This document shows, in pieces, positions 39,288-56,736 of a stretch of DNA of 57,762 nucleotides. Source of the stretch: Bacteroidales bacterium (GTDB taxonomy: Bacteria; Bacteroidota; Bacteroidia; Bacteroidales; UBA932); the NCBI GenBank assembly GCA_017438975.1, contig JAFRUH010000013.1, positions 1 through 57,762 of the forward strand, read 5' to 3'. How positions within the stretch are numbered: the stretch's first letter is position 1; every line of letters starts with the position of its first letter. Below the pieces are notes generated by a model, which did not search any database, had not been told where the DNA came from, and saw only the letters and a list, made by a program, of their open reading frames with translations. The position numbers were made by a program, and so were the translations under genes.

Positions 39288-39305
39288 AACCAATAACTTT
39301 GACAT

Positions 39306-40262: not shown

Positions 40263-40277
40263 TTGTTTATCAGCAAT

Positions 40278-41167: not shown

Positions 41168-41183
41168 GTGAGATATAAAGAGT

Positions 41184-41239
41184 TGATAAATAATCAATTA
41201 AGAAATTCCTCCTATGTAAATATGCATAGGAGGAATTTC
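41184..41239. repeat. TGATAAATAATC-N6-hairpin element, copy B
   Basis: TGATAAATAATC (41184-41195) is followed by six bases and a hairpin with perfect 15-base arms GAAATTCCTCCTATG (41202-41216) and CATAGGAGGAATTTC (41225-41239). It shares the 12-mer, the six-base spacing and the CTCCTA arm core with 18350-18405. It sits between the convergent GDPD and repeat-DUF1080 genes. The rest of 41240-41339 holds nothing I can identify. Confidence 0.65.
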
Positions 41240-41339
41240 GTAATAAGCAGTCAGACAGCCTGTTCCGCATCACGGGCAGTTCTCCGTTCTCCGCGGTCAG
41301 CAGGTTCCGGGGCCGTGGGGCGGCAGTCAGGACCGGGAC

Positions 41340-43757
41340 CTACTTCTTGTCCAGGTCGAGGACGCGGACGTTGCGGATCTTCAAGCCTTCGCCGTGGCCG
41401 CAGAAGGAGATGTAGCCGGACTTGTTGAACATGCCCGGGTGGTTCCGCTTGTCGACCGTGTACGGGTTGGTCTTGCTGCCGTCCGGAGCGACATTGTGGC
41501 CCTTGCAGGCCTTGCGGATGTTCGCATCGACGATGACTTCTCCGTTGACCGTGACCTTGATGTGGTCGCCTTCGACCCGGATCTCTTCCGTGCTCCATTC
41601 GCCGAGCGGCTTATGGACGATCCGTTTGGCGGGAACGACACCGTAGACCGAACCATGGACCTGATACTCCCGGAGGTTCTTGTAGATCGGGGCATCATGG
41701 TCCAGGATCTGAACCTCGCACATCGCGTCATAGGCCGCGTCCACGCCCATCGGGGTGCGGATGCCGACGCCGTTGTTGACGCCCGGACGGAGGAAGCAGA
41801 ACTCGAAACGGTAGACGAAGTTCCGGTACTCCTTCTTGGTGTAGAGGTTTCCGGTTGAGCCGTAATTGGCGGATACATAGATCGTTCCGTTGAGGGGGAT
41901 GTATCCTTCCAGATCGCCCTGCCACTTGGAGAGGTCGGTTCCGTCGAAGAGCATCTCAAACCCTTGTTTCTCCTCTTCCGGAGTCAGCTTCGAAATCGGG
42001 GATGGTTCCGCCTTGGAGAGGATTTCCTTGATTTCGTCGATGGCGTATCCGTCGTCCGGATCGCCGGTCCCGGCATAGACCGCGGCGGCCTTCTCAAGGG
42101 TAGATTTCAGGGTCGCATAGTCCAGTTCCTCTTCCGTCTTGGCAGCGATTTTCTTGACGCTGTTGGCGGCTTCATAGGCAACCGCCGGTTCGCCCAGGTA
42201 TTTCGCCGCGAGCCGGAAGGCCTTCATTGTCGGAACGTCGCCGACCGCCTTGAGAATCCCCTTCTTGATCTTGGGATTTTCGGTGAGGGAAAGGGCGGAT
42301 GCATAGTCTGCGCGCTTCTTGTCGAGGTTCTCTTCATATTTCGCGACGAGGGAAGTGTAGCGCGGGAGGATTCCGTCGGCAAGGGACTTGTCCCCCTTGG
42401 CGATTTTCAGGAGTTCGGGAATGACCTTGGCATTGTCGATATTCAGGAGGCCGGTCAGGGCGTCCTTCTTATCTCCGTTCGCATAGGCTTCCGTCAGGAT
42501 CTTGACGGCGTCGTCCATGCCGGTTCCGGCGAGGCTCGGGAAGAGCCGGGACGGATTCCGGACATCGTGCAGGAAGTCGTTGATCTTGTCGAAGGCATCG
42601 GCGGCGGAAAGGGTGTGGAGGGCTCCGGAAAGAGCTTTCTGAAGAGGAGCGATATCTTTTTCGGACGCCTTGTCGAGCAGGCCCACGATCTTCGCGGCGT
42701 CATCCGGAACGGTCACGCCGGAGAGAGCCGCGATTGCGGCGTCGTGGGTCGTCGGATTGGAGACGAGGTCGAAGATCCGGCCGGAGGAACCGGTCAGTCT
42801 TCTCGCACCGGCCAGGGCGACGAGTTTCGGGTCGGCCGTGCGCGCGAGCGCTTCACCGAGTTTGCCCCGGATGTCTCCGTTGTAGGCGGCAAGGGCCTGG
42901 CAGGCCTTCTCCGCGAGCGGGCTCTTGGTCTCGATCAGGGACAGCAGGTTTCCGAGATTGTGGTCTCCGCCGATCTTCCCGGCCGCGGCGACGGCCGCTT
43001 CCCCGAGTTCACCGGCTTCGCCAAGGCACCCGTCGACCAGGTCCTGCAGCGAGGAGAGTTTGTTCCGGCCGATCCAGTTGAGGACATCGGTCCTGGCATT
43101 GCCGAGTTTCTTGAAATTCTTGGCGATCACGGGGACGATGGCCGCAGGTCCCGCGAGTTCATCGGCATAGCCGAGGACGGCGTTGGCGTATTCGCGGTTT
43201 CCGCTCTTGAGGGCGCTCAGGAGGGTCTTTCCAATCTTTTTCGGCTGGGCGCTCATAAGCGCGAAGGCTCCTTTGCACATCTGGTTCGTCACGCCGCTCT
43301 TGAGAAGCTCCTTGGCTTCCTTGACGGTGGGCAGGACATCGGGAACGATCTCGGGAACGGGGCCGAGCATGCGGCAGAGAGAATTGAGGAACTGCTTGTT
43401 GGTCTCGTCCGTGCAGGCACCGGCGGCTTTCGCGAGCCCTTCAAGCACTTTCGCTTTCGATCCGGGATGGGCGGGATCGGTGACATATTTGACCAGGCCG
43501 GACAGGGCGTATTCCACCAGATTGTTGGTGGTCCCTGCGGCGGCCGGCTGGAGCATTCCGGCGAGAATTTCGACGGACTTCGGGGCTGAGGCCGCGAGGT
43601 CTTCCATGTCCCCGGCCAGGATATCGGCGGAAGGTGCGGGCATCTGGGCCAGCACGTCGGAGACGATGGTTTCAACGGTCCGCTGGCGGGCATCCTGAGC
43701 CGACAGAGACAGGATACCGACGGACAGGGTAAGTATGAGGGATACTAACTTTTTCAT
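41340..43757 (-). CDS. Helical-repeat protein with C-terminal DUF1080 domain, secreted
   Basis: An 805-residue protein with a signal peptide (MKKLVSLILTLSVGILSLSA-Q). Residues about 25-580 are Ala/Leu-rich helical hairpins ('PKSVEILAGML', 'GKTLLSALKSGN', 'VTVPDDAAKIVGLLDKAS') typical of HEAT-like solenoids. Residues about 590-805 form a DUF1080 domain: 'GFEMLFDGTDLSKWQGD', 'GVNNGVGIRTPMGVDAAYDAMCEVQI' and 'GLKIRNVRVLDLDKK'. DUF1080 enzymes act on 3-keto-glycosides; the solenoid may dock a partner or polymer. It follows the Gfo/Idh/MocA oxidoreductase by 19 bases, a known functional pairing, and ends the large SusCD locus. Confidence 0.82.
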   Translation of the reverse strand: MKKLVSLILTLSVGILSLSAQDARQRTVETIVSDVLAQMPAPSADILAGDMEDLAASAPKSVEILAGMLQPAAAGTTNNLVEYALSGLVKYVTDPAHPGSKAKVLEGLAKAAGACTDETNKQFLNSLCRMLGPVPEIVPDVLPTVKEAKELLKSGVTNQMCKGAFALMSAQPKKIGKTLLSALKSGNREYANAVLGYADELAGPAAIVPVIAKNFKKLGNARTDVLNWIGRNKLSSLQDLVDGCLGEAGELGEAAVAAAGKIGGDHNLGNLLSLIETKSPLAEKACQALAAYNGDIRGKLGEALARTADPKLVALAGARRLTGSSGRIFDLVSNPTTHDAAIAALSGVTVPDDAAKIVGLLDKASEKDIAPLQKALSGALHTLSAADAFDKINDFLHDVRNPSRLFPSLAGTGMDDAVKILTEAYANGDKKDALTGLLNIDNAKVIPELLKIAKGDKSLADGILPRYTSLVAKYEENLDKKRADYASALSLTENPKIKKGILKAVGDVPTMKAFRLAAKYLGEPAVAYEAANSVKKIAAKTEEELDYATLKSTLEKAAAVYAGTGDPDDGYAIDEIKEILSKAEPSPISKLTPEEEKQGFEMLFDGTDLSKWQGDLEGYIPLNGTIYVSANYGSTGNLYTKKEYRNFVYRFEFCFLRPGVNNGVGIRTPMGVDAAYDAMCEVQILDHDAPIYKNLREYQVHGSVYGVVPAKRIVHKPLGEWSTEEIRVEGDHIKVTVNGEVIVDANIRKACKGHNVAPDGSKTNPYTVDKRNHPGMFNKSGYISFCGHGEGLKIRNVRVLDLDKK

Positions 43758-43776
43758 ATCGATGTTCTCTTTCCGG

Positions 43777-45087
43777 TTATAACTTCATGTAATCTGCCCA
43801 AGGAGCCCGCATAGGCTGGTTGATCAGCAGGTTGGCCGCATCGTCACCGATAAACTTCTCCGTCTTCGGGTCGAAATGCAGGGTGCGGCCGAGACGCAGG
43901 GCGCAGGCGCCGATGTTGACGACCGTGGAGCTGTGGTACCCGATGATCTCGTCCAGGGCGAAATGCTGGCGGTTTTTGACGCACTCGAGGAAGTCGGTGT
44001 GGCGCGGCGCCGGGTCCGGGAGTTCCGCGAGGACATCCATGACATTCGGAATGGTGCACTCGAAGCCCTTGTAGACCTTGCCTTTCGGGCCTTCGATGTA
44101 CGGTACCTTGCCCTTGCTTTCGAAGCCTTCGCCTTCGAGGATGATCTTGCAGCCGTCCTCATAGGTATAGGTTATGCTCCGCCAGGTGCCGACGGCGTCG
44201 CTGTGCTGCTGCGGGGCGTCGACTTCGACCTTGACCGGGAAGGTGTCGTCCTTGCCGAGGATGTACTGGACCGGGTCGATATAGTGCTGGCCCATGTCTC
44301 CGAGTCCGCCGCTGTCATAGTCCCAGTATCCGCGGAAGGTCTGGTGCACACGGTGGGGGTTGTAAGGCTTGTACGGAGCGGGACCGAGCCACATGTCATA
44401 ATCGAGTTCCTTCGGAATCGGCTGGGGAACAAGGTTTTCCTTGCCTGTCCAGAAGAATTTCCACGCGAAGCCCGTCGCGCCGGAGATCCGGACGGTCAGC
44501 GGCCATCCGAGCAGCCCGCTGTCGACGAGTTTCTTGAGCGGTTCGACGGTCGTCCCGAGTCCGTAGAACGTATCCTTGAAGCGGAACCAGGTGTCGAGCC
44601 GGAACATCCTGCCGTAGTCGTGGACGGCCTTGACGATCTTCTGGCCTTCTCCGATTGTTCGGGTCATCGGCTTTTCGCAGAAAATGTCTTTTCCGCTCCG
44701 GGCCGCCTCGACGGCCATGATGCCGTGCCAGTGCGGCGGCGTGGCGATGTGGACGATGTCGACGTTCGGGTCGTGGACGAGGTCTCTCCAGTCATGGTAG
44801 GGCTGGAGGTTCGCGTCGAACTGTTTCTTGCCTTTTTCGAGGGCCAGGTCCAAATGGTGCTGGTCGACGTCGCAGACGGCGACGAGACGGCATTTCTCAT
44901 CACTCATGAAATGGTACCGGCTCCGGCCGATGCCGCCGGTTCCGATGATACCGCGGGTCAGCTGGTCACTCGGGGCGACGTAATTCGTGGTGCCGTTCAG
45001 CTTGCCCAGTACCTCCCGGGGGAGAATCGTGAACGCGCCGATGCCGAGTCCGGCTTTTTTGATAAAATCTCTTCTGTTCTGAGCCAT
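43777..45087 (-). CDS. Gfo/Idh/MocA-family oxidoreductase, exported
   Basis: A 436-residue NAD(P)-dependent sugar or inositol dehydrogenase-like protein. It has a twin-arginine signal (MAQNRRDFIKKAGLGIGAF), the nucleotide loop 'RGIIGTGGIGRSRYHF', the conserved 'DIFCEKPMTRTI' (EKP) and the 'YDSGGLGDMGQHYIDP' block with the catalytic His region. Tat export means it folds with cofactor before crossing the membrane. Exported members of this group oxidise glycosides at C3, supplying 3-keto substrates to DUF1080 enzymes such as the next gene. It lies eight bases after the EEP gene at 45096. Confidence 0.88.
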   Translation of the reverse strand: MAQNRRDFIKKAGLGIGAFTILPREVLGKLNGTTNYVAPSDQLTRGIIGTGGIGRSRYHFMSDEKCRLVAVCDVDQHHLDLALEKGKKQFDANLQPYHDWRDLVHDPNVDIVHIATPPHWHGIMAVEAARSGKDIFCEKPMTRTIGEGQKIVKAVHDYGRMFRLDTWFRFKDTFYGLGTTVEPLKKLVDSGLLGWPLTVRISGATGFAWKFFWTGKENLVPQPIPKELDYDMWLGPAPYKPYNPHRVHQTFRGYWDYDSGGLGDMGQHYIDPVQYILGKDDTFPVKVEVDAPQQHSDAVGTWRSITYTYEDGCKIILEGEGFESKGKVPYIEGPKGKVYKGFECTIPNVMDVLAELPDPAPRHTDFLECVKNRQHFALDEIIGYHSSTVVNIGACALRLGRTLHFDPKTEKFIGDDAANLLINQPMRAPWADYMKL

Positions 45088-45095
45088 ATGCTTGA

Positions 45096-45902
45096 TTATT
45101 TGATTTTTACGTCAACGTAGACAGGAAGGTGATCGGAGGCGACAGTAACGTCTCCGCTCTTGAACTCGACGGGAACGTCCGAGGAGTAGAGTTTGATGAC
45201 GGCCTTGTTGTTGAGTTTCAGGATGAAGTCGATGCAGCCGTGCGGTTCCTTTGCGGAGTAGGAAGGTTTGGGAACGGACAGGATGGTCCAGTCCTTCGTG
45301 AAATCGGCGATGGTCTTGCTGTCCGGATGGACATTCATGTCGCCGGCGAGGAAAACCGGCTTGTCGGAATCCCCGTAGCGGGCTTTGAGGGTCTCGGTGA
45401 TGGTCCGTGCCTGAAGCAGGTTGGCTTCCTTGGAGCGGTGGTCCAGATGGGTCGATGCGAGGACATACCGCGGGGTCTCGACGACGCAGCAGGCCCTGGG
45501 CTCGGATCCCGAGTCCTTCGGAAGGGCGATCGTGAACTGGTCCAGGATCTCGTCCGGCACGGCGACTCCTACGCCATAGGCACCATCGCGGTAAGGCATG
45601 GCGCGGCCGAAACGGAAGTTCCATCCCCCCATCGCCTCGGCCAGGTCGGCCGTCTGGTTGTTCAGGTGCCGGGTGTTGCAGCTGTCCAGTTCATTGAGGG
45701 AGAGGGCGTCGGCATGGATCTCTTTCATCATGTCCGCAATCATCGGAATACTGTTGTCGATCTCTTTTGAGAAGGCTCCGACATTGTACTGGACGATGCG
45801 GAGGGTTCCCTTCGGCTTGGGATAGGCCTCCTTGTTCTTGCACCCGGCCGCCAGGAGAGCCAGGCAGGCGAGGCCGGTGAGGATCAGAGCTGTTCTTTTC
45901 AT
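45096..45902 (-). CDS. EEP-family lipoprotein 1 (endonuclease/exonuclease/phosphatase fold)
   Basis: A 268-residue lipoprotein (MKRTALILTGLACLALLAAGC, Cys21). The metal-dependent EEP fold is complete: 'QYNVGAF' (Asn), 'LNELDSCN' (Glu), 'STHLDHRS' (His), 'AGDMNVHPDS' (Asp, Asn), 'IDFIL' (Asp) and 'ASDHLPVYVDV' (Asp-His). The superfamily includes DNase I, neutral sphingomyelinases and inositol-polyphosphate 5-phosphatases, so the substrate is an unknown phosphoester. It is one of four paralogs in the locus and is closest to the one at 49757 (shared 'SGSE', 'VVETxxYV'). Confidence 0.85.
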   Translation of the reverse strand: MKRTALILTGLACLALLAAGCKNKEAYPKPKGTLRIVQYNVGAFSKEIDNSIPMIADMMKEIHADALSLNELDSCNTRHLNNQTADLAEAMGGWNFRFGRAMPYRDGAYGVGVAVPDEILDQFTIALPKDSGSEPRACCVVETPRYVLASTHLDHRSKEANLLQARTITETLKARYGDSDKPVFLAGDMNVHPDSKTIADFTKDWTILSVPKPSYSAKEPHGCIDFILKLNNKAVIKLYSSDVPVEFKSGDVTVASDHLPVYVDVKIK

Positions 45903-45911
45903 GGTATCGGA

Positions 45912-46739
45912 TTAAAATTTTACGTCTGCGAAGATCGGGAAATGGTCCGAAGCCTTCTCGGAATCGGCGTTGTAGAGTTTGAGCAGGGTATTGCCCCCGA
46001 CGACTTCGACAGGAGCGGAATCCTTGTAATGGAAGATGAAGTCGATGGTGCGGTGCGAATTGACCGTCGTGTAGTCTTCCTGGTTGGAAATGACTTCCCA
46101 TTGCTCTTCAAGGGCTTTGATGGCATCCGATCCCGGGATGGAGTTCATGTCTCCGCAGAAGAAGACGGGGATCTTGGAGCCTTTGTATTTCTGGACCCAG
46201 GCGTTGATCTCTGCGATCTGCGACTGGATGTATTCTTCGGAGGAATGGTCGAGATGGGAGCAGGCGAGGATGTATTTGCCGGTGGTAACCGCAATCATGC
46301 CGCGGTCTTCGAACCGCTTTCCGTCTTCCCGTTCGATATCGTTCCTGAACTGGATGGTTTCCTTGGAAAGGACCTTCGTCTTCTTCGGTGTGATGATGCC
46401 GTTTCCATAGGCCCCGCCACGGTAGTCGAGGGTCTTGCCGTAGAACCAGTTCCAGTCCCCGGCCGCCTGGGTCAGGAGTTCGATCTCATTGACATTGTGA
46501 CGCTGGTTGCAGCTGTCCAGTTCGTTGAGTCCGACGACATCGGGCTGGGCTTCCTTGATGATTTCCGCGAGCATGTTGACATTGTCTTCGAGGACGGGGA
46601 TGTATTTGTGCATCGCTCCTACGTTATAGGACATGATCCGGAAGGTTCCTTTCGCTTTCGGATAATAGGATTGGGGGGCTTTAGGGGCGCATCCGGCGAG
46701 CATTCCGATGCAGGCGAGGAGCAGGATTGTTTTTTTCAT
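45912..46739 (-). CDS. EEP-family lipoprotein 2
   Basis: A 275-residue lipoprotein (MKKTILLLACIGMLAGC, Cys17). After 'YYPKAKGTFRIMSYNVGAMHKY' it has 'LNELDSCNQRHN' (Glu), 'CSHLDHSSEEYIQSQIAEINAW' (His), 'FCGDMNSIPGSDAI' (Asp, Asn), 'IDFIFHYKDS' and 'ASDHFPIFADV' (Asp-His); all catalytic positions are kept. It is most similar to the next paralog at 46753 (shared 'EYIQSQIAEINAW'-type helix and 'KTLDYRGGAYGNGI'), pointing to a recent duplication. It is separated by nine bases from paralog 1 and 13 from paralog 3, all in one operon. Confidence 0.85.
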   Translation of the reverse strand: MKKTILLLACIGMLAGCAPKAPQSYYPKAKGTFRIMSYNVGAMHKYIPVLEDNVNMLAEIIKEAQPDVVGLNELDSCNQRHNVNEIELLTQAAGDWNWFYGKTLDYRGGAYGNGIITPKKTKVLSKETIQFRNDIEREDGKRFEDRGMIAVTTGKYILACSHLDHSSEEYIQSQIAEINAWVQKYKGSKIPVFFCGDMNSIPGSDAIKALEEQWEVISNQEDYTTVNSHRTIDFIFHYKDSAPVEVVGGNTLLKLYNADSEKASDHFPIFADVKF

Positions 46740-46752
46740 GATATCAGGTGGT

Positions 46753-47655
46753 TCAGTTTGTCGGGAAAGTCACGTCTACATAGATGGGAAGGTGGTCGGA
46801 GGCCGTTTTCACATCTCCGTTGTAGAAGCGGGTCATGGTATTCGCCCCGAGCACCTTGACGGGTGCGGAGCGCTTGTAGTGGAAGATCCAGTCGATGGTG
46901 CTTCTTTCCGTGGTCAGGACGGAAGAGTTCGAAATGGCCTCCCAGGGGCCCAGGATGGCCTGGATGGCCTCCGATCCCGGCCTGGCGTTCATGTCCCCGC
47001 AGAAGAAGACGGGGATGTCGCTGTCCCGGTAGTGCGTCTGGAACCAGGCGTTGATCTCGGAAATCTGGGATTGGATATAATCTTCGGAGGAATGGTCGAG
47101 GTGGGTGGCGCCGAGGACGTATTTGTCGGTTTCGACGATGACCATGCCCCGGCTTTCATACGAGGTCGTGTTTTGGAAGCGGAGCCGGTAAACCTTGAGG
47201 ATCTTCACGTCCGAAGGGGTCATGATTCCGTTTCCATAGGCCCCTCCGCGGTAATCGAGGGTCTTGCCGTAGAAGTAATTCCATTTCCCGGCCGCCTGGG
47301 CCAGGAGTTTGAGCTGGTACTGGTTGCAGCGCTGATTGCAGCTGTCGAGTTCATTGAGCCCGACGATATCCGCCTGGGCCTCGTTGATCATGGCTGCGAT
47401 CATGTTCACATTGTCCGTCAGGACGGGAATGTACTTGTGGAGGGCGCCGACATTGTAGGACATGATCCGGAAGGCACCCTTCTCTTTGGGATAGTAGGTT
47501 TTCTCCGGATCGATGACGACCGGTTCCATTTCCTTCTCCTTGTCCCATTTATAGGGACCGTCGTCGATGTTGACCGGTTTGTTGTCCGGACCGCACGCGA
47601 GGGCGAAGAGCAGCAGGAAAGCCGTAAAGAAAAATACCGGAAAATATTTTTTCAT
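46753..47655 (-). CDS. EEP-family lipoprotein 3
   Basis: A 300-residue protein with the lipoprotein-like start MKKYFPVFFFTAFLLLFALAC (Cys21). It repeats the plan of paralog 2 with a longer spacer after the Cys: 'YYPKEKGAFRIMSYNVGALHKY', 'LNELDSCNQRCN', 'ATHLDHSSEDYIQSQISEINAW', 'CGDMNARPGSEAI', 'IDWIFHYKRS' and 'ASDHLPIYVDV'. All EEP catalytic residues are present. It begins 13 bases after the hairpin terminator at 47668, so it depends on read-through from the upstream genes or on an unrecognised promoter. Confidence 0.85.
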   Translation of the reverse strand: MKKYFPVFFFTAFLLLFALACGPDNKPVNIDDGPYKWDKEKEMEPVVIDPEKTYYPKEKGAFRIMSYNVGALHKYIPVLTDNVNMIAAMINEAQADIVGLNELDSCNQRCNQYQLKLLAQAAGKWNYFYGKTLDYRGGAYGNGIMTPSDVKILKVYRLRFQNTTSYESRGMVIVETDKYVLGATHLDHSSEDYIQSQISEINAWFQTHYRDSDIPVFFCGDMNARPGSEAIQAILGPWEAISNSSVLTTERSTIDWIFHYKRSAPVKVLGANTMTRFYNGDVKTASDHLPIYVDVTFPTN

Positions 47656-47667
47656 AAATAATATAAA

Positions 47668-47700
47668 AGGAGGCGGGAAACCGGCGGTCCCCCGCCTCCT
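47668..47700 (-). terminator. Terminator inside the SusCD/EEP locus
   Basis: Perfect 10-base arms AGGAGGCGGG / CCCGCCTCCT with a 13-base loop, followed on the minus strand by TTTTATATTATTT. It lies 10 bases after the GLUG-protein stop and 12 bases before the next EEP start. No -7 box is visible between them, so it probably attenuates expression of the downstream five genes. Confidence 0.75.
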
Positions 47701-47710
47701 GGATAAAGGA

Positions 47711-49744
47711 TTATTTCAGTTTCGGAGCGTCTCCGGAGAGATCCCAGACATCCTCGGGCCAGCCAAGGGACTTGGCGACGGAAGAGATCGTGGACCCGGC
47801 CGGGGCGGCGAGACCGTGATAAGGATAGTAATTCTTAACCTTCAGGGCGTCCTTCAGCGGCGCAGCAGCGGAAACGTTCGGGCTGTCGAAGATGGAAGGC
47901 GTAACCTCGCTTCCGTCAGCGAATTCCATATCCGGGCGGCGGTAGTTGTCCGTCAGCGTGTTGTAGACGTTGGATACCGCGATGACGGCGCCGGAGCTCC
48001 AGGTCGTCGGAGAGCCGGTCGGGCAGGTGATCGTCTTGTTCCAGGCGATGGATTGCTCCAGCGTGAAGTTGATGTCGTCGGTCAGGGTACTGGACTTCGC
48101 AAAGGCGATGAGACCGCCGATGACGGAGTACTCGGACTTGATGTCCCCGGATGCGTAGCAGCGGCGGACCGTGATGCCGGTCTTGTTCTCGATGACGCCG
48201 ATGAGACCGCCGGCCATACGGCCGTTCGAAGCCTTGAGCGTGACATTGCCGGTCGCATAGCAGTCTTCGATCAGGGAATCGCCCGTCGTACGGGCGGCAT
48301 TACCGATGAGACCGCCATTGTGGTTACCGCCGTTACAGGTGATGTTGCCGGTCGCATAGCAGCGCTGGATTGTGGACGTTCCGTTCATGGAACCGATGAG
48401 ACCGCCGGCGTAGTGGCTGGCGAGGGTGGTGACATCTCCGGTCGCGTGGCTGTCCGTAACGGTGAGTTTCGGAGCATAGGCGAGACCGATGAGGCCGCCG
48501 GCATTCTGGCTTTCGGTGACAATCGTCATGGAAGAGGAGCACTTCTCGACCTTGATATCCTCGGCCGTGTCACGGATGTAACCGATGATGCCGCCGCCGC
48601 GCTGGTTGGCGTGGAGGGATCCCTTGGTTTCGCAGCCCGTGAAGAAGCAGCCGCCATAGACGACACCGGAGACACCGGCGATGGAGCTCGGAACCTTGTG
48701 GTCATCGTCCGCATCGAGGATGTCCGTCTCGACTTTCACGTTGGAGAAGGTCGTGTTGTAGGCCGTGCCGATGAGACCGCCGACGCCTTCGGAAGTACCG
48801 ATGACATTGATCTTCATTCCGTTGACGGTGACGTTCTTGACCTCTGCTTCGGCGCCATCGGCGGTTCCTGCGAGGGCTCCGAGGAGACCGGCGGGAGTCC
48901 CGTTGACATCAAGGACCGGCTTTTCGAAGGTTACGTCGTGGATACTGCCGACGAGGCAGCCGACGAAGCTCGGCCAGGCGTCGGCGTTGCAGAAGAAGTT
49001 GCTGATCTTGTGGCCGGCGCCGTCGAAGTCGATGGCCATGTCGTACGGACTTGCCGCGTTGGCGGGAATCCAGTCTTCATAGCCATTCATATCGACGTCG
49101 GCGTCCATCTTGAAGTAGGTCTTCTGGCCGCTCTTCATGGCTCTCGGGACGCAGGCGAGTTCGGTCTGGTTCCGGATGATGTACGGGTCGGCCTCGGTCC
49201 CGGTTCCGAGTTCGAAACCGGACGCCGGGAGACCCTTGCGGCGGAAGAGGATGTAGAAAGTGCTGTCCGCCTGGCTCAGGGAGGTCGGGCTGCTGCCCTC
49301 GATCTTGGTGATCGTCAGGGGCAGGATCCGGGCCGTGTTGTCATCCGGCATGGCTGCACTGTTGAGCGTCAGGATCGTGGTGGACGAGACTTTGTTGTAG
49401 CGGGGAAGGAGCAGCTGGTCCTTCGTGAGGGAGAAAGCATCGCCGGGAACCGCCTCGAAAGAGGTTCCGTGGCTGCGGTTGTACGCCGCGACCTTGGAGG
49501 GGTCCGAGCCGATGGTCAGGGTGAGCAGGTCGTCCGCGACGCTGGATGCGGTGACCTTGACGGTGTAGGACTTGGTCCGCGGGGACATCAGCACGACCGT
49601 ATCTTCCATCGAATCGACGGAAATCGTGAAATTGGCGGGCGTGTCGATCTTGACCTTCTTCTCATAGTCGTATTCCTGGTTGAAGCAGGAAACGGCCATG
49701 AGGGCGGTGAGTCCGATAAGCGCTAATATTCTGTACGTTTTCAT
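47711..49744 (-). CDS. DUF1735/GLUG-repeat surface lipoprotein
   Basis: A 677-residue lipoprotein (MKTYRILALIGLTALMAVSC, Cys20). Residues about 35-170 look like the DUF1735-type domain of SusCD-linked surface glycan-binding proteins ('DTVVLMSPRTKSYTVKVTA', 'LTIGSDPSKVAAYN'). Residues about 220-580 are GLUG-type beta-helix repeats: recurring 'GGLIGxx...CYATGNV' units, seen for example in 'HYAGGLIGSMNGTSTIQRCYATG' and 'MAGGLIGVIENKTGITVRRCYASG'. Such repeats usually form extended adhesive solenoids. It stands where PULs encode the surface-binding protein, so a ligand-capture role is likely. It is 12 bases downstream of the EEP gene. Confidence 0.8.
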   Translation of the reverse strand: MKTYRILALIGLTALMAVSCFNQEYDYEKKVKIDTPANFTISVDSMEDTVVLMSPRTKSYTVKVTASSVADDLLTLTIGSDPSKVAAYNRSHGTSFEAVPGDAFSLTKDQLLLPRYNKVSSTTILTLNSAAMPDDNTARILPLTITKIEGSSPTSLSQADSTFYILFRRKGLPASGFELGTGTEADPYIIRNQTELACVPRAMKSGQKTYFKMDADVDMNGYEDWIPANAASPYDMAIDFDGAGHKISNFFCNADAWPSFVGCLVGSIHDVTFEKPVLDVNGTPAGLLGALAGTADGAEAEVKNVTVNGMKINVIGTSEGVGGLIGTAYNTTFSNVKVETDILDADDDHKVPSSIAGVSGVVYGGCFFTGCETKGSLHANQRGGGIIGYIRDTAEDIKVEKCSSSMTIVTESQNAGGLIGLAYAPKLTVTDSHATGDVTTLASHYAGGLIGSMNGTSTIQRCYATGNITCNGGNHNGGLIGNAARTTGDSLIEDCYATGNVTLKASNGRMAGGLIGVIENKTGITVRRCYASGDIKSEYSVIGGLIAFAKSSTLTDDINFTLEQSIAWNKTITCPTGSPTTWSSGAVIAVSNVYNTLTDNYRRPDMEFADGSEVTPSIFDSPNVSAAAPLKDALKVKNYYPYHGLAAPAGSTISSVAKSLGWPEDVWDLSGDAPKLK

Positions 49745-49756
49745 TGCTCTTGGGTA

Positions 49757-50677
49757 TTAAAACTGAACATCCACATAAATCGGGAGATGGTCGGATGCCA
49801 TGGTGACATCACCGTTGTAGAACTGCGTCATCACATGGGATCCGACAACCTTGACCGGAGCGGATTTCTTGTAATGGAAGATATAGTCGATACAATTCTT
49901 CGCATCCCGGGAAGGGAAGGAATTCTCATTCGTGACGGAAAGGAGGTCCCACTCCTGCTTGAGGGCCGTGATGGTCTCGGTGTCGGGATAGTTGTTCATG
50001 TCCCCGAGGTAGAAGACCGGTTTCTTCGAGTCGCGGTATTTGGATTCCGCCCAGCGGTTCACGATTGCGACCTGCTCGATCTGGGCGTCGGTCGACTTGT
50101 GGTCGAGATGGGAAGCCCCGATGACGTACTTTTCGGTCTCGACCACCGCGATGCTGCGCTGCTCCGATCCGGAGCCCTTTGCGAGGGTGACCGTGTACTT
50201 GGACAGGATCTTGGCGTCTTTCGGGACGACGACCCCGTTGCCGTACGCTCCGCCCTTGTAGGCCATGGCCCGGCCGAACCACCACTGCCAGTCCCCGAGC
50301 TGCTTGGCCAGGTTCGCAACCTGGTTTTCGCCCGGATGGCGGGTGTTGACGGAATCGCACTCGTTGAGGCCGGCGACATCCGCCTTGACCTCGGTGAGCA
50401 TTTTGGCGATCATTTCGGTACTCTCCTTCGTTGTCATATACTTGTTGAATGAGCCGACATTGTAGGAGACGATCCGGAAGGAGCCGCTGGCCTTCGGGTA
50501 GTAGGTCTGCCCGGGGTTTACCGGTTCAGGGTCCTTCTTGTCATCCCCGCCGACGGGCTTCCAGGAATCCGGCTCCTTGGATGTGTCGACCGGTTCCACT
50601 CCCGTTCCGCCGCAGGCGAAAAGGGTAGCCGCGGCGGCCAGGATTGCGAGATATGTAAAGATTCTTCTCATCACCAT
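49757..50677 (-). CDS. EEP-family lipoprotein 4
   Basis: A 306-residue lipoprotein ('ATLFAC' lipobox near residue 22). Catalytic motifs: 'SYNVGSFNKY' (Asn), 'LNECDSVNTRHPG' (Glu), 'ASHLDHKSTD' (His), 'LGDMNNYPDTETI' (Asp, Asn), 'IDYIFHYKKS' and 'ASDHLPIYVDV'. Unlike the other three it has Cys for Leu in the NELDS block. It directly follows susD with overlapping stop and start (ATG at 50677, or 50671 giving TGATG), so it is co-translated with the uptake system. It has a longer, charged spacer after the Cys. Confidence 0.85.
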   Translation of the reverse strand: MVMRRIFTYLAILAAAATLFACGGTGVEPVDTSKEPDSWKPVGGDDKKDPEPVNPGQTYYPKASGSFRIVSYNVGSFNKYMTTKESTEMIAKMLTEVKADVAGLNECDSVNTRHPGENQVANLAKQLGDWQWWFGRAMAYKGGAYGNGVVVPKDAKILSKYTVTLAKGSGSEQRSIAVVETEKYVIGASHLDHKSTDAQIEQVAIVNRWAESKYRDSKKPVFYLGDMNNYPDTETITALKQEWDLLSVTNENSFPSRDAKNCIDYIFHYKKSAPVKVVGSHVMTQFYNGDVTMASDHLPIYVDVQF

Positions 50678-52407
50678 CCGGGATTCTGCACAAGATTTTC
50701 GTTAAGGCTCAGCTCGTCGGTCGGAATCGGATAATAGTAATCGCGATTCTCGTTCCAGGAACCGGGGTCGGTCGGATTGGTCAGCACGTAACCGCTGGTG
50801 CCGTTCGTGAGGAAGATGTCCGTTCCGATCTTGCGGGTGATCGCCGTGGATGGAATATCGGTCGGCTTCGTGTCCGTGTAGATGGCGTGGTCGATCACGC
50901 CGTCGCCGTCCAGGTCATAGTTCCCGGGACCCGGGAAGTAGAGGCCGAGGTTCTGGTGCTTGAAAGCCTGTCCGTTCTTCCAGCGGATGATGTCGTAGTA
51001 GCGGAAGTTCTCGTCGAAGAGCTCGACGGTCCGCTCGCGGCGGATTTCCAGGATGACGCCGGCGTTGGGTCCCGTCACATTGGGATAGCCCGTTTCGGCG
51101 GCCTGCAGGTACGGATCCGGCCTGGCATTGGCTTCGGCGAGGTTGATGTTCGGCATGCCGACGCGGTCGCGGAGGAGGCGGATCGACTTGTCGAGGTCGG
51201 CCTGGGTCAGGGTTCCGAGCTCGGCCTTGGCCTCGGCGAAGTTGAGGATCACCTCAGCCGCGCGGAAGAGCGGAAGGTCGTTGTAGGAGGCACCGTACAG
51301 GTCCACGCCGAGGTCGACGCCCTGCATGTACTTGGTGGGCTGGTAACCGGTCTCGGAGTCGGCGAGGCTCGGAGCCTCGGTCTTGTCGGAAGCGATCCGC
51401 TTGTAGCCCGGGATCCGGATGGACTGGCCCAGACGCGGGTCCCTGTTCTTCGTCTCATCCACGAAGCTCATCGTCTGCCAGCCTTCCTTGTCGGTGAAAC
51501 GGGTTCCGTCCGCCATCAGGTAGGTGCAGAACATCTTGCGGGTCATGCCCGGGTTGCCATAGTTGCCAAGGGTATAGTAGGTACCGTTGTGCTTGACGTT
51601 GAGGGAGAGGTCATAGTCGCGGGCGAGGATGATCTCGGTTCCGATGGCGTCCGTGCTGGCGAAGAGGTCGCGGTAGGCGTTCGGGCCGGAATTGTAGATT
51701 CCATAACCGCTCGTCGCGATGAATTCCTCACCGGCTGCGGCGGCCTGCTCGAGGTACCACTGCCAGGAATGCTCAGGGAAGGAGATGTTGTGATACTTGC
51801 GGAAAGTACCCTCGAAGAGGCAGGCGCGGGTCTTGAGGGCCATCGCCGTCCATTTCGTGACCTTGTAGAGGGAGTGCTTGGTCGGGAGGTGCTCGATGGC
51901 GAAGTCGAGGTCTTCGACGACATGGGCCATGACGAGCTCGCGGCTGTCGCGCGGTTTGTAGAGCGCCTCGTCGGCAGAACCGAGCTGGGTATCATACCAC
52001 GGCACGTCACCGAAACGTTTTACTTTTTCAAGATAGAAATACGCACGGAAGAATCGGGCAACGGCAACGTACTCGTTGCGGACGTTATCGTCCTTGCAGT
52101 TGACGGAGAAGTCGATCAGCGTATTGTAGTTGCGAAGGGCGCTCCAACTCCAGCCGCCGCCGGATCCGGGGACGGTACGCGCACCGCGCATCTCGTTGGT
52201 GAGGCCCATCTTGATGATCATATCGGACTCTTCCTCATAGACCGAAGTCCCGGGGAGGTCGGAATAGAAATTGTTTGCAAAGGCGTCCATTTCGCTCGCG
52301 TTGGAGAAATAGCTGTCCGGCGAGAGGGAAGCAAGCGGATACTTGTTCAGATCGCAGGCCACAACGGCGAGGGCGGTTGCAAGGATCAGGATTATATTCT
52401 TTTTCAT
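50671..52407 (-). CDS. SusD/RagB-family nutrient-binding lipoprotein
   Basis: A 578-residue surface lipoprotein (MKKNIILILATALAVVAC, Cys18). 'LNKYPLASLSPDSYFSNASEMDAFANNFYSDL' is the typical N-terminal block. The middle has the tetratricopeptide-like helices ('NEYVAVARFFRAYFYLEKVKRFGDVPWYD'), and 'RAAEVILNFAEAKAELG' and 'ILEIRRERTVELFDENFRYYDIIRWKNG' are the C-terminal SusD signatures. It forms the lid over the adjacent SusC channel. A start 15 bases earlier (52422) is possible; 52407 gives a cleaner signal peptide. susC ends only a few bases upstream. Confidence 0.93.
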   Translation of the reverse strand: MKKNIILILATALAVVACDLNKYPLASLSPDSYFSNASEMDAFANNFYSDLPGTSVYEEESDMIIKMGLTNEMRGARTVPGSGGGWSWSALRNYNTLIDFSVNCKDDNVRNEYVAVARFFRAYFYLEKVKRFGDVPWYDTQLGSADEALYKPRDSRELVMAHVVEDLDFAIEHLPTKHSLYKVTKWTAMALKTRACLFEGTFRKYHNISFPEHSWQWYLEQAAAAGEEFIATSGYGIYNSGPNAYRDLFASTDAIGTEIILARDYDLSLNVKHNGTYYTLGNYGNPGMTRKMFCTYLMADGTRFTDKEGWQTMSFVDETKNRDPRLGQSIRIPGYKRIASDKTEAPSLADSETGYQPTKYMQGVDLGVDLYGASYNDLPLFRAAEVILNFAEAKAELGTLTQADLDKSIRLLRDRVGMPNINLAEANARPDPYLQAAETGYPNVTGPNAGVILEIRRERTVELFDENFRYYDIIRWKNGQAFKHQNLGLYFPGPGNYDLDGDGVIDHAIYTDTKPTDIPSTAITRKIGTDIFLTNGTSGYVLTNPTDPGSWNENRDYYYPIPTDELSLNENLVQNPGW

Positions 52408-52425
52408 ATCGTGTTCCTCCATGGT

Positions 52426-55400
52426 TTAGAAAGTAAGATCGATACCGAACATATAGGACTTTTGCCACGGGTAGATACGGTTGGTCGAGTCGAGTTTCGC
52501 CATTTCCGGATCAATGTACTCGGAGTGGATTCCGGACCACTTCGCGAGGTTTTCACCCGAGAAGTAGATGCGGATGTTTTCGATTCCGATACGGTCGGTC
52601 AGGGTCTTCGGGAGGGTGTATCCGACGTTGAGGTTCTTCAGACGGCAGTAGGCGATGTTCTGGAGATAACGGTCGGTCGGGACGGTCAGCTCACGGTTGG
52701 AACCGAGGGCGACGTAACCTCTCGGACGCGGATAGTAGGCATCCGGGTTGTCTTCGCTCCAGATCATCTTGTGGAAGTCCTTCGGGATCAGGGTTGCATA
52801 CGGACGGGCGTACGGTCCCCAGAAGAGGACGTTGTTCGTAGCCGGAGCCCAGTCAAGTTTGCCGATGCCCTGGAAGAAGATGGAGAAGTCGAAGCCCATC
52901 CACTGGAAAGCGAGGTTGAGACCGTAGTTGTAGCGCGGCTGCTTGTTGCCGATGATGCGGCGGTCGCCCGGGTTGTCGACGGTGTTCTCGCCGATACCGA
53001 TCTTGCCGTCACCGTCGAGGTCGCGGAACTTCAGGTCACCCCCGTGGATACCGCGCTCGCTTCCGGCGGAGCCGTTGATTCCGTTGTTGACGTACTTCTG
53101 GTCGATCGGCCAGGAAGCTGCCTCGGCGTCGTCCTTGAACAGACCGTCGGTATAGTAACCCCAGATCTCACCCCAAGTCATTCCTTCGTAATAGCTCTGT
53201 GCGAGAGACTTGTTGGGGTTGTCGTACTTGGTGATCTTCGTGAGATAGTCGCTGAAGGAAGCGGTCACGCTGTAGTTGAACGGCTTGCCGGCGAGGTTGA
53301 AACCGTCTCTCCAGACGAGCTGGAGCTCATAACCCTTGGTGCGGAGGTCCGCAGCGTTCATCTTCGGGGAAGAAGCGCCGTAGACGGCCGGGAGGGTCTT
53401 GCCAGCGGTAAGCATGTCCTTGGTGTCACGGATATAGGCGTCGGCCGTGAAGGTCAGGCGGTTGCCGAGGAAGGCGAGGTCGAGACCGAGGTCATGCTGG
53501 AGCGTGCGCTCCCAGGTGAGGTTCGAAGCGACCGGAGCGCCGATCGTTGCGATCGTCGGCTTCGCGCCGGTACCGAAGAGGTAGCTTCCGGTGCTGATCG
53601 AAACCTTGCGGATATAATCGTAGTAACCGACCTGCTGGTTGCCGAGGGCTCCGTAGGAGTAACGGATCTTGGCGTTGTTGATCACGGGCTTGAGCGGAGC
53701 GAAGAACGCTTCTTCGGAGATTCTCCAACCGGCGGATGCGGAAGGGAAGAAACCCCAGCGGTGATCCGCGGCGAAGCGGGAAGATCCGTCATAACGGCCG
53801 CTGACCTCGAAGAGGTATTTCTCCTTGTAGTCATAATTGAGACGGCCGAAGAAGCCTTCGAGGGCATATTCGTTCTGACCGCCGGTGACCTCCATGCGCT
53901 GGTTGCCGTCGGCATCCGCGCCGATGAGGTTGAGGTCGGAGAGGGTCTGGCTCATCAGATAGTAACCGACCGCCTTGTTGTCCTTGAGGTGCTTGGTTTC
54001 CCAGTTGAAACCGCCCATGAGTTTGACATGGTGGTTCTGTGCGAAGGTCTCAGCCCAGGTCGCATAGACGTTGGTAGAGTAGTAGTTGTGGGTCTCGTAA
54101 GATTCCTGCAGCTTATCGATGGAACGGCTGTTGTTGACCGCGAGGAGCTCGCCGGGATACTGGGAGTAGTAGGTGACGAGGGCGCGGTTGGAGTAGCGGT
54201 TCTGGTCGAGGGCATAGGTGAAGTTGGCCCGGATTTCGAGGGACTTGAGCGGCTTGAGGACGAGTTCTGTCGTCGTCCGGAAGTCGGTCTTTTCGTCCTT
54301 GTTTCTATAGTTCGGCTCGTCGAGAACGGTCAGGAAGCCGTCCATGACGAAGTTGTTGTCCGCGAAGGACGTGAAGCCGATCGAGGTGCCGTCCGGGTTG
54401 TGGGCCGGGTAGCTCGCGAGGGCATGGACCGTCATCAGCGAGAAGACGGTATCGACACCGCTGGCGCCCGGATAAGCGTACTGGTACTTGTAGAAGGAGG
54501 TGTTGTTCGATACGCTCATCCACTTGTTGATGTCGAAGGTCAGCTTCGAGCGGAAGTTGTACTTGTTGAGCTTATCGGTATTCCTGCGGAACAGGCCCTC
54601 TTCGTAGTTGTATGCGCCGGAGAGGAAGTACTTGACATGTTCGGTTCCGCCGCTCAGGGAGATGCTGTGCTGCATCGAAGGACGGCGGTCCTGGAACATC
54701 TCATGCCACCAGTCCGTATTGGCATAATAGACATACTGGTCGCGGCCGTTGCGCTGGTCGATCATGACCCAGGGACGGTCGGGATTCTCGACGGAATCGT
54801 TGACACGGGCCCAGAGCTGGGCCATGTCGTCTTCCGTGTAGACCGTGTAATTCTTGCCGTTGTAAGCGCGGAAGAAAAGGTCGTTGAGATAGACGGAATA
54901 GTAACCGCGGGTTTCGAAGTCGGTCGAAGTCGTCGGCTCTTCCCAGCCCATGCGGCTCGATACCTGGACGCGGGCGAAGCCTTCCTTGGCGGAACCGGTC
55001 TTCGTCGTGACGAGGATGACACCGAAGGAAGCACGGGCACCGTAGATCGCGGCGGCGGAAGCATCCTTGATGACGGAAATCGACTCTACATCAGCAGGAT
55101 TGACACGGGAGAGATCGCCTTCGGCACCGTCGACCAGAACGAGCGGGCTGCCGCCGTTGATCGAGTTGATACCTCGGATGTTGATGCTGGCGGAGTTGCC
55201 CGGACGTCCTGAACTGGTCGTAACGTTGAGGCCCGGGACGGAACCCTGCAGCATGTGGGTCAGCGTCGGAGCGACGCGGTTTTCAAGGGTTTCGGACGTT
55301 ACGGAGGAGATGGCACCGGTCAGGTTGACTTTTTTCTGGACGCCGTAACCGACGACGACAGTCCCTTCCAGGTTCAGCGCATCCTCCTGGAGGACGACGT

Positions 55401-55680
55401 TGACGACGGTCTGGTTGGCTCCGACCGAGACCTTCTGCGAAATGTAGCCCAGCGACGTGATGTCGAGGACGACGGGACCTGACGGAGCCTTCAGGGAGAA
55501 GGATCCGTCCATGGCTGAGATCGTTCCCTGATTGGTCCCTTCGATCAGGACGCCTGCACCGACGACGGGTTCCTGATTCGCATCACGGATCGTACCGGTG
55601 ATCGTCCTGTTCTGACCGAAGGCCCCCGCTGCTGTCGCAAGCGCAAGGAACAAAGTCAGGATCAAAGATTTAGAACGCAT
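52426..55680 (-). CDS. SusC/RagA-family TonB-linked outer-membrane transporter
   Basis: A 1084-residue outer-membrane channel. After the signal peptide (about 1-22) comes a CarboxypepD_reg-like domain ('ITGTIRDANQEPVVGAGVLIEGT', 'GSFSLKAPSG'), then the plug ('VVVGYGVQKKVNLTGAISSV', 'SINIRGINSINGGSPLVLVDGAEGDLSRVNPADVESISVIKDASAAAIYGARASFG'), then a barrel ending in Phe ('SYMFGIDLTF'). It pairs with the SusD downstream and likely imports a large oligosaccharide or other polymer fragment. It heads the EEP locus. No anti-sigma/ECF or hybrid two-component regulator gene is adjacent. A -7 box TATTTTTG lies about 57 bases upstream (55737-55744). Confidence 0.95.
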   Translation of the reverse strand: MRSKSLILTLFLALATAAGAFGQNRTITGTIRDANQEPVVGAGVLIEGTNQGTISAMDGSFSLKAPSGPVVLDITSLGYISQKVSVGANQTVVNVVLQEDALNLEGTVVVGYGVQKKVNLTGAISSVTSETLENRVAPTLTHMLQGSVPGLNVTTSSGRPGNSASINIRGINSINGGSPLVLVDGAEGDLSRVNPADVESISVIKDASAAAIYGARASFGVILVTTKTGSAKEGFARVQVSSRMGWEEPTTSTDFETRGYYSVYLNDLFFRAYNGKNYTVYTEDDMAQLWARVNDSVENPDRPWVMIDQRNGRDQYVYYANTDWWHEMFQDRRPSMQHSISLSGGTEHVKYFLSGAYNYEEGLFRRNTDKLNKYNFRSKLTFDINKWMSVSNNTSFYKYQYAYPGASGVDTVFSLMTVHALASYPAHNPDGTSIGFTSFADNNFVMDGFLTVLDEPNYRNKDEKTDFRTTTELVLKPLKSLEIRANFTYALDQNRYSNRALVTYYSQYPGELLAVNNSRSIDKLQESYETHNYYSTNVYATWAETFAQNHHVKLMGGFNWETKHLKDNKAVGYYLMSQTLSDLNLIGADADGNQRMEVTGGQNEYALEGFFGRLNYDYKEKYLFEVSGRYDGSSRFAADHRWGFFPSASAGWRISEEAFFAPLKPVINNAKIRYSYGALGNQQVGYYDYIRKVSISTGSYLFGTGAKPTIATIGAPVASNLTWERTLQHDLGLDLAFLGNRLTFTADAYIRDTKDMLTAGKTLPAVYGASSPKMNAADLRTKGYELQLVWRDGFNLAGKPFNYSVTASFSDYLTKITKYDNPNKSLAQSYYEGMTWGEIWGYYTDGLFKDDAEAASWPIDQKYVNNGINGSAGSERGIHGGDLKFRDLDGDGKIGIGENTVDNPGDRRIIGNKQPRYNYGLNLAFQWMGFDFSIFFQGIGKLDWAPATNNVLFWGPYARPYATLIPKDFHKMIWSEDNPDAYYPRPRGYVALGSNRELTVPTDRYLQNIAYCRLKNLNVGYTLPKTLTDRIGIENIRIYFSGENLAKWSGIHSEYIDPEMAKLDSTNRIYPWQKSYMFGIDLTF

Positions 55681-55736
55681 AATAAAAACTGGTTAGTTAG
55701 TAATGTATTTTTTTGAACAGGTTTTCTTCCACATTT

Positions 55737-55785
55737 CAAAAATAAATAAAAATATTGAGTGAACAAATAATAATACTTACTTTTG
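55737..55785. promoter_or_regulatory. Divergent promoters: susC and phosphodiester glycosidase
   Basis: Minus-strand TATTTTTG (55744-55737) precedes susC with a leader of about 50 bases. Plus-strand TACTTTTG (55778-55785) with TTG at 55754-55756 lies four bases before the ATG at 55790, implying a leaderless transcript. Confidence 0.55.
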
Positions 55786-55789
55786 TGCG

Positions 55790-56736
55790 ATGGGAAAAAG
55801 AAAATTTTATATCCTCCTGACGGTTTTGCTTCCCCTGCTGCTGGTCTCCTGCGGAAAGGGAAAGATTCTCGACGAACCCACACCTTTGCCTCCCGCCCCG
55901 AACCCTCCCGTCGTCACTCCCGGAGAGAATGGCGGTGGAAGCGGTACGTACGCATGGGAGGCCAACCGCGGCAAGATCATACGCCCTGCGGCCGGGAACG
56001 GCTGGACCGTAACGCCTGTCGAGGAAGGGATCGTTTACTATTCTTTCAGCGGAAAAGAACCCGTAACGAACACCAACCAGCGTATCTTTGTCACGGAGAT
56101 CGACCTGAACAATACCTCTTTTTCGGTAAAACTGGGTTACTATAGCGGAAAAACCACCGCATCCAATGTCTTGAAGCAGACGGGCGCCATCGCCAGCATC
56201 AACGCCGGCTATGAGAAGGCGGCGTTGTACCTCAAGTGCAACAACTCGGTGATATCTACCATCAGCGCCGAAACCATCGGTTCGACGGGCGTCCCCCAGT
56301 GGAAGAGCGAAGCGGCGGTTTACATGGACCAGGAGCGTGACGTCCGCATCGAATTCACCGGCCGCGGAATGTCCCTGGCCGAGTGGCGTAACGTCTATCG
56401 CGCACGGCCCTTGCCAAGACCGAGGACAACCATCTGTTTTTCATTGTCGTCGACGGCCGGCGCGAAGGCATCTCCAAAGGGATTTCGGCTGCGGACCTGA
56501 CCAAGTTCCTGGTCAACAACTTCAACCCGCAGTCAGCCATCAACATGGACGGCGGCGGATCCTCCACGATGTGCGTGAGAGGACAGGGCGACCCCGTAAC
56601 ATTCGTGGTGAATTACCCCTGTGACAACCGCAATGAAGACAAGAATGGTTCCCCCAAGGAAACCGACGGTCCCGACCATGCCGGCGAACGTCCCCGCGAC
56701 ACCTTCTTCTATGTGGTGAAAAACCAGACCCCTTAA
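55790..56736 (+). pseudogene. Phosphodiester glycosidase (NAGPA/DUF2233) lipoprotein, frame-disrupted
   Basis: Lipoprotein start MGKRKFYILLTVLLPLLLVSC (Cys21). The first frame runs to 56500 and has 'RIFVTEIDLNNTSFSVKLGYYSG' and 'IASINAGYE', typical of the phosphodiester glycosidase fold. The family's remaining signatures, 'RTALAKTEDNHLFFIVVDGR' and 'AINMDGGGSSTM', lie in another frame from about 56401 to the stop at 56736. Reading is restored by one extra base near 56399-56402 (CGCGC). The product would be about 315 residues. There is no slippery sequence, so this is a one-base deletion in the cell or in the assembly. The family cleaves sugar phosphodiesters (GlcNAc-1-P-6-Man uncovering enzyme type). 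It is divergent from susC. Confidence 0.8.

Follow-up and report, generated by a model that had tools for sequence, protein, structure and literature searches.

A Bacteroidales SusCD-type locus built around four EEP-fold proteins, a candidate system for taking up and degrading a phosphate-bearing glycan

The prediction of polysaccharide utilization loci (PULs) usually rests on glycoside hydrolases and polysaccharide lyases, and loci built from phosphoesterases are easily overlooked; the use of phosphate-bearing glycans by gut and rumen bacteria is itself poorly known. Among the closest described systems, SusCD clusters in which phosphoesterases replace the carbohydrate-active enzymes (CAZymes) have been published in Flavobacterium as phosphate utilization systems (PUS; PMC8115612), and BT2157, which hydrolyzes 3-ketotrehalose, is one of the DUF1080 proteins (PMC9007349). 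Here, we analyze a nine-gene locus with four proteins of the endonuclease/exonuclease/phosphatase (EEP) fold on a 57,762-nucleotide contig of a Bacteroidales bacterium (JAFRUH010000013.1, assembly GCA_017438975.1), the whole of which we call the window. We give a probability of about 0.6 to the reading that this locus encodes a SusCD-type system for the uptake and the dephosphorylation or breakdown of a phosphate-bearing glycan. This reading is proposed because the neighborhoods of related loci hold genes for NAGPA (phosphodiester glycosidase), histidine-acid-phosphatase-like, organophosphate-antiporter-like, GH89, NamZ and MurQ proteins, and because the predicted model of EEP1 matches a mannosyl-6-phosphatase of Bacteroides thetaiotaomicron structurally.

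The original prediction had placed the nine genes in a given order on one strand, and all were found so, in a minus-strand run from 41340 to 55680. The features of the locus and of its two flanks are as follows:

52426..55680, minus strand: SusC-like TonB-dependent transporter, 1084 aa (Pfam Plug, CarbopepD_reg_2, TonB barrel)
50671..52422, minus strand: SusD-like surface lipoprotein, 583 aa (Pfam SusD_RagB, 154 bits)
49757..50677, minus strand: EEP4, phosphoesterase fold, lipoprotein-like signal by reading, 306 aa (Exo_endo_phos, 44.7 bits; SusD-adjacent EEP lineage)
47711..49744, minus strand: protein with BT_3987-like N-terminal domain and GLUG repeats, probable surface glycan-binding protein, 677 aa (Pfam)
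47668..47700, minus strand: intrinsic-terminator-like hairpin within the operon, 15 pairs, T-rich tail
46753..47655, minus strand: EEP3, 300 aa (Exo_endo_phos, 54.4 bits; groups with EEP2)
45912..46739, minus strand: EEP2, 275 aa (Exo_endo_phos, 51.3 bits)
45096..45902, minus strand: EEP1, 268 aa, Gfo/Idh-linked EEP lineage
43777..45087, minus strand: Gfo/Idh/MocA oxidoreductase, twin-arginine-like N-terminus, 436 aa (GFO_IDH_MocA_C2, 457 bits)
41340..43757, minus strand: helical-repeat N part with C-terminal DUF1080 (3-keto-disaccharide hydrolase) domain, 805 aa (PF06439, 113 bits, residues 599-799)
55790..56735, plus strand: divergent lipoprotein gene with NAGPA domain (PF09992), frame broken at ~56395-56415
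37890..41099, plus strand: convergent neighbor run, alkaline phosphatase, calcineurin-like phosphoesterase and glycerophosphodiester phosphodiesterase (GDPD) (Pfam)

The SusC and SusD genes are adjacent, as in PULs of the SusCD type, and the junctions are tight: 3 bases between SusC and SusD, 12 between EEP4 and the GLUG gene, 13 between EEP3 and EEP2, 9 between EEP2 and EEP1, 8 between EEP1 and Gfo/Idh, and 19 between Gfo/Idh and DUF1080. The predicted gaps of 3-19 bases with one 55-base exception, located between the GLUG and EEP3 genes, thus stood for all junctions but one, SusD and EEP4 overlapping by 7 bases with no gap. The terminator also predicted in the 55-base gap corresponds to the 15-pair hairpin, which folds at -30.7 kcal/mol (z -4.94, with none of 200 shuffles equally good) and has the longest stem of the 17 terminator-like sites listed for 41000-56600, a total that does not exceed chance (15.9 expected). 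As a predicted terminator, it is convincing, and because it lies in this gap, it may lower transcription of the enzyme part of the operon. The entire gene order recurs in a second genome (locus L119), and the locus is therefore not a chance array. The search for the same order in other Bacteroidales, suggested with the original prediction, thus found all of it there, save that EEP2 and EEP1 are fused into a single 525-residue protein with two EEP domains (L119, 9167-10744).

We then considered the four EEP proteins. All carry signal-peptide-like N-termini and match the Exo_endo_phos profile at 42-54 bits (Pfam; cut-off 24.5). Eight positions, which we take to be the DNase I-type catalytic residues (N40, E71, H152, D188, N190, D225, D257 and H258 in EEP1 numbering), are invariant across 58 aligned sequences that include these four. 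The four EEPs therefore look catalytically intact, in line with the intact motifs first reported; catalytically dead EEPs are not supported, nor is a grouping with non-catalytic members, which the original prediction had named as a result that would speak against it. The EEP fold is supported by a confident predicted model, obtained for EEP1 only, whose closest structural matches are EEPs of bacteria, a sugar phosphatase among them. The B. thetaiotaomicron mannosyl-6-phosphatase BT3783 (4c1r), a close match, ranks fourth. Sequence identity to BT3783 is 20% over 223 residues, on which ground EEP1 was rejected as its ortholog.

The four EEPs are placed in two lineages by a tree of 120 rows (116 of 143 EEP domains, short, identical and early-locus rows being dropped, and the four window EEPs), which was computed with the method "quick," has the Shimodaira–Hasegawa-like approximate likelihood ratio test (SH-aLRT) as its sole support and contains several long branches. 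EEP2, EEP3 and EEP4 share a 17-row group (SH-aLRT 98); of its 14 other members, 9 are SusD-adjacent. EEP1 falls in a separate 17-row group (SH-aLRT 96), 13 of its 16 other members being Gfo/Idh-adjacent. This grouping indicates that the locus is composite, with EEP2-4 from a SusD-adjacent lineage and EEP1 from an EEP-Gfo/Idh-DUF1080 module. A recent tandem quadruplication of one EEP is rejected, as EEP1 belongs to another lineage. Four EEP paralogs had been recognized from the start, but their origin in two lineages had been overlooked.

The lipoprotein next to EEP4 combines Pfam Glug (71 bits) with the BT_3987-like_N domain, and its predicted model has a mean pLDDT confidence score of 85.1. 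Its best PDB matches are 3n6z and EndoBT-3987, the latter being matched by the N part when sequences were searched, and it is probably a surface glycan-binding protein beside SusCD. Its 15 PDB matches with E values up to 0.001 include no lyase, and the idea that it is a hidden lyase or hydrolase is not supported; a weak GH87 match appears far down (2.3e-3). The Gfo/Idh protein scores 16.3 bits for TAT_signal_seq, just below the cut-off of 16.7, has 8tdf and 8tdh as best PDB sequence matches, and stays below the BT_2158 and BT_2159 equivalogs (143.9 vs 750 bits and 29.3 vs 650 bits, respectively). The DUF1080 protein carries the domain of the 3-keto-glycoside pathway (PF06439, 3keto-disac_hyd) well above the cut-off of 26.8 bits and matches 3s5q, 8rr2 and 8tda among 13 PDB entries. 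This domain is the only candidate for a carbohydrate-active enzyme within the operon, with the broken NAGPA gene beside it. Elsewhere in the window, a small lipoprotein (7006-7623, minus strand) has an N-terminal sequence resembling a stand-alone DUF1080 protein.

For the comparison with relatives, we named the 80 highest-ranked of the 257 stretches that were confirmed, which amount to 78 loci; their EEP genes were called from stop-to-stop frames. Most source records are rumen or gut Bacteroidales, and several bear the name Candidatus Cryptobacteroides; a few come from Alistipes, Barnesiella, Porphyromonas and Proteiniphilum, and one carries the label Anaerolineaceae (L169). When the order was sampled evenly, with the window's genome included, the EEP subfamily was found at 1e-30 in at least 30 of 295 genomes and at least 25 of 183 genera, these being lower bounds as at most eight candidates were scored per genome. 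An EEP adjoins SusD in 16 of the 78 named loci, four of which also have Gfo/Idh and DUF1080 (L119, L152, L153 and L174, a Proteiniphilum record). Ten others have the EEP with Gfo/Idh and DUF1080 only, nine have NAGPA, two have a GH89-EEP fusion, and three have NamZ, two of these three being also among the 16. In Alistipes montrealensis (L181), the order is SusC-SusD-EEP-GLUG.

The link to NAGPA was seen from two sides. When the 60 best SusD rows among the matches listed from 61 genomes were ranked, the window came first and a 73% ortholog with no NAGPA nearby second; all five matches ranked 3-7 lie within 9 kb of NAGPA genes, versus 7 of 53 at ranks 8-60. An EEP of this subfamily is present as well in two of these five nearest NAGPA-linked stretches (L031 and L034), where the order is SusC, SusD, two GLUG-type lipoproteins, NAGPA, GDSL, a variable gene, NAGPA, EEP. 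The variable gene is organophosphate-antiporter-like in L031 and histidine-acid-phosphatase-like in L034, names taken from NCBIfam matches below the curated cut-offs (322-324 of 425 and 221-226 of 408 bits, respectively). L034 and L187 lie on one contig; L170, L190, L192 and L193 (the last without GDSL) agree with L034 over their fetched extent, and L191 is close to L031. A NAGPA copy from a sister locus matches human NAGPA weakly (3e-4 to 4e-4). In another of the five stretches (L030, 4486-14436), SusC-SusD-GLUG-GLUG is accompanied by three consecutive NAGPA genes. Starting from the EEPs at 1e-20, 13 of 43 clusters in 33 genomes, the window itself counted, have NAGPA within 12 kb, compared with 1.07 expected under uniform gene placement and uncorrected for shared descent.

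The window has a NAGPA gene of its own, overlooked when the locus was described as having neither polysaccharide lyase nor glycoside hydrolase, a description that this gene amends. It starts at 55790, divergent from SusC, and its domain, detected in the 3′ piece at 56389-56634 on the plus strand (2.8e-16, 60.7 bits vs a cut-off of 25), is split over two frames, so that 55790-56735 does not form a single reading frame. The two pieces were searched separately among the fetched loci: the 5′ piece is closest to the L190 NAGPA (1.4e-52) and the 3′ piece to the L192 NAGPA (1.7e-37), both of which are open frames within NAGPA-EEP loci. The frame break would reflect either a decayed gene or an assembly error.

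Relatives of the EEPs also keep company with enzymes for amino sugars and for peptidoglycan. Seven rows of the EEP tree are EEP-GH89 fusions. The fusion to GH89 (alpha-N-acetylglucosaminidase) is confirmed by Pfam in L113 (8633-11347) and was seen by similarity only in L112 (8892-11768), and one EEP is fused to GH2 (L114, 9491-13138). L036 has GH3, GDSL, GDPD-like and antiporter-like genes with an EEP, and L116 (1415-15818) has SusC-SusD, two distant EEPs, two GH89 genes and a glycerate kinase. EEP-NamZ pairs occur in L060, L061, L109 (the same as L161), L168 and L188. L060 belongs to the window's own genome (contig C2, 1603-8879) and is a second SusC-SusD-EEP locus, followed by NamZ (exo-N-acetylmuramidase). 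L061 (6201-18846) and L168 (4816-17450) have the order SusC-SusD-EEP-NamZ-DUF6259-Na-symporter-kinase-like-MurQ, the kinase-like protein being named by reading, and are apparent loci for N-acetylmuramic acid (MurNAc) uptake and breakdown.

The EEP1-Gfo/Idh-DUF1080 module also stands without SusCD, in several genomes beside genes that read as ribosomal-protein-like (L101, L102, which is the same as L129, L122-L124 and L131). Of 101 genomes searched, 13 of the same genus match Gfo/Idh at 1e-80, and in all of these Gfo/Idh and DUF1080 are adjacent. In 6 of all 17 carriers, the Gfo/Idh gene has an EEP of this subfamily as its neighbor; one of the others (L198) has a GH89-like gene, by similarity, in the position of the EEP.

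From these neighborhoods, we infer a sequence of events in which every catalytic step, the side of export and the substrate are conjectural. SusC, SusD and the GLUG/BT_3987-like lipoprotein would capture a polymer at the cell surface and import its fragments, and the four EEPs would cut phosphodiesters or strip phosphate from sugar residues, outside the cell or in the periplasm. The Gfo/Idh protein would oxidize the freed glycoside at C3, the DUF1080 protein would split the resulting 3-keto glycoside, and sugars and phosphate would then enter the cell.

Several observations weigh against this reading. Forty of the 78 named loci have no marker gene next to the EEP; few of these were inspected closely, and some stretches are shorter than 4 kb (e.g. 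L157 and L177). One of the forty, L145, is a GH53/GH2/galactokinase operon with an EEP of the same subfamily, L139 looks alike, and in L146 an RNase R-type gene adjoins. Nor do NAGPA and EEP always occur together, as three of the five nearest NAGPA-linked stretches (L030, L032 and L033) show no EEP in the fetched stretch. The NAGPA enrichment ignores shared descent, and 2 of its 13 cases (G019 C4 and C38) are probably a single contig in duplicate. The window's own NAGPA gene is frame-broken, and neither of two close relatives, L119 and L099, has NAGPA beside SusC, where sequences read as PNPase-like (directly upstream in L119; L226) and RadA-like, respectively, are found instead. No EEP of this subfamily accompanies Gfo/Idh in 11 of the 17 carriers, 3 of these 11 having less than 1 kb of contig upstream, and NamZ, MurQ, GH89 and transporters of such kinds are absent from the window's operon. 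Finally, nucleases and sphingomyelinases have EEP folds as well, and at 20% identity BT3783 is a poor guide to the substrate. The general phosphoglycan reading nevertheless draws on several different neighborhoods, and we consider it reasonably probable.

The original prediction of a PUL-like system for a phosphate-bearing glycan or glycolipid is upheld in its first part by these neighborhoods and by the structural resemblance of the EEP1 model to BT3783; the substrates that it listed (phosphomannan, teichoic-acid-like polymer, inositol phosphoglycolipid) are still candidates. Wall teichoic acid is joined to peptidoglycan by a GlcNAc-alpha-1-phosphate-6-MurNAc unit (GlcNAc, N-acetylglucosamine), the bond of which is chemically of the type cleaved by NAGPA. 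Because EEP relatives co-occur with NamZ and MurQ, which act on peptidoglycan, with NAGPA, which acts on GlcNAc-1-phosphodiesters, and with GH89, which acts on alpha-GlcNAc, our favored, if unproven, substrate is a polymer of bacterial walls, such as peptidoglycan-linked teichoic acid. Note that this argument concerns the EEP subfamily and is carried over to the locus in the window, which has none of these four genes save the broken NAGPA. No GlpQ- or PhoD-type teichoic-acid phosphodiesterase was found by Pfam in the nine genes, a GDPD being present solely in the convergent neighbor operon.

That operon bears on the strongest rival, phosphate scavenging, in which SusCD would import organic phosphorus and the EEPs would free phosphate under scarcity, the sugar being incidental. 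The alkaline phosphatase, calcineurin-like phosphoesterase and GDPD genes form one convergent run whose membership in the system is uncertain; they have the same convergent placement in L119, and no locus other than these two was seen with the trio at its side, many fetched stretches being too short. The PUS of Flavobacterium johnsoniae offers a precedent, since it combines SusCD with phosphodiesterases or a phosphatase, lacks CAZymes and is induced by phosphate depletion (PMC8115612). The Gfo/Idh-DUF1080 pair and the NAGPA, GH89, NamZ and MurQ of the relatives point instead to sugar breakdown, and the 109-base stretch that separates SusC from the NAGPA gene contains no TGTCA or TGACA word, with the proviso that Bacteroidales Pho boxes may differ. 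Rumen fluid is, moreover, usually phosphate-rich. On balance, we regard scavenging as unlikely.

Three other readings are less likely still. A system resembling the PUL for yeast alpha-mannan in B. thetaiotaomicron, with EEPs removing mannose-6-phosphate, would fit the fourth rank of BT3783 among the structural matches, and NAGPA-type enzymes could cut Man-1-P-6-Man. The identity to BT3783 is low, however, Pfam detected no mannanase or mannosidase in the nine genes, and GH76, GH92 and GH99 are missing from the Pfam-scanned neighbors of related loci, which makes phosphomannan rather improbable. We rate equally low the idea that the EEPs are phospholipase C-type enzymes acting on glycosyl inositol phospholipids or glycosylphosphatidylinositol-like glycans of plants, fungi or ciliates: in a PDB search with the larger EEP profile A3, 3l1w alone passes 1e-6, the closest structural matches are the bacterial EEPs mentioned above, no lipid-handling gene was seen among the annotated neighbors, and NamZ and MurQ do not fit. 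Nucleic-acid uptake with EEPs as nucleases is the most improbable of all. The EEPs weakly match exodeoxyribonuclease III, MnuA and ExeM models, and the EEP1 model also matches TDP2 and nocturnin structurally, but these family scores (16-27 bits vs cut-offs of 99-300) are far too low, no nucleosidase or nucleotidase was seen among annotated neighbors, and the partners are sugar-specific.

Breakdown of a phosphate-bearing glycan thus being the preferred reading, its kind is already known from the published PUS (PMC8115612) and from a solved EEP named sugar phosphatase (4c1r). A search of the open-access literature, weak in part because the EEP name is searchable only without slashes, returned no homologous locus with an assigned substrate, another result named beforehand as one that would speak against the prediction, and neither the EEP-NAGPA-GH89-NamZ class nor the Gfo/Idh-DUF1080 composite. 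We put forward, tentatively and at well under even odds, that the window's locus and related ones represent a class, so far undescribed, by which Bacteroidales feed on phosphodiester-linked polymers of bacterial walls (teichoic acids joined to peptidoglycan), in which a shared EEP subfamily would cut the phosphate bonds and be combined with interchangeable NAGPA, GH89, NamZ/MurQ or Gfo/Idh-DUF1080 modules. If this is true, the EEP subfamily would be a marker for phosphoglycan-degrading loci, and it would become possible to test directly how Gram-positive walls may be recycled in the rumen.

Set against the known systems, the locus resembles each in part. Like the PUS, it has phosphoesterases, in place of CAZymes, co-localized with SusCD; the enzymes of PUSI and PUSII are two phosphodiesterases or one of the PhoA type, and the one EEP-type protein seen in table passages of PMC8115612 is listed as an orphan, whereas the window's locus combines its EEPs with a lipoprotein of glycan-binding type and with a 3-keto-glycoside pair. 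Compared with BT3783 of B. thetaiotaomicron (~20% identity), it has four EEPs with Gfo/Idh and DUF1080 and lacks mannan glycosidases. It shares with the BT2157-type 3-keto-glycoside pathway the adjacent Gfo/Idh and DUF1080 genes and the PF06439 domain, and differs in the low Gfo/Idh score (144 bits vs the BT_2158 cut-off of 750), in the fusion of DUF1080 to a long helical-repeat part and in the EEP partner. The domain of the human uncovering enzyme NAGPA (6pkg) and of its Bacteroides-type counterpart (3ohg) is found in the divergent gene and in the sister loci, the window copy being frame-broken and a sister copy only weakly similar to the human protein. The NamZ/MurNAc recycling clusters of the Tannerella forsythia type are resembled by the EEP-NamZ loci of the relatives, two of which have the symporter, kinase-like protein and MurQ; these genes are absent from the window locus, and its genome has one SusCD-EEP-NamZ locus elsewhere.

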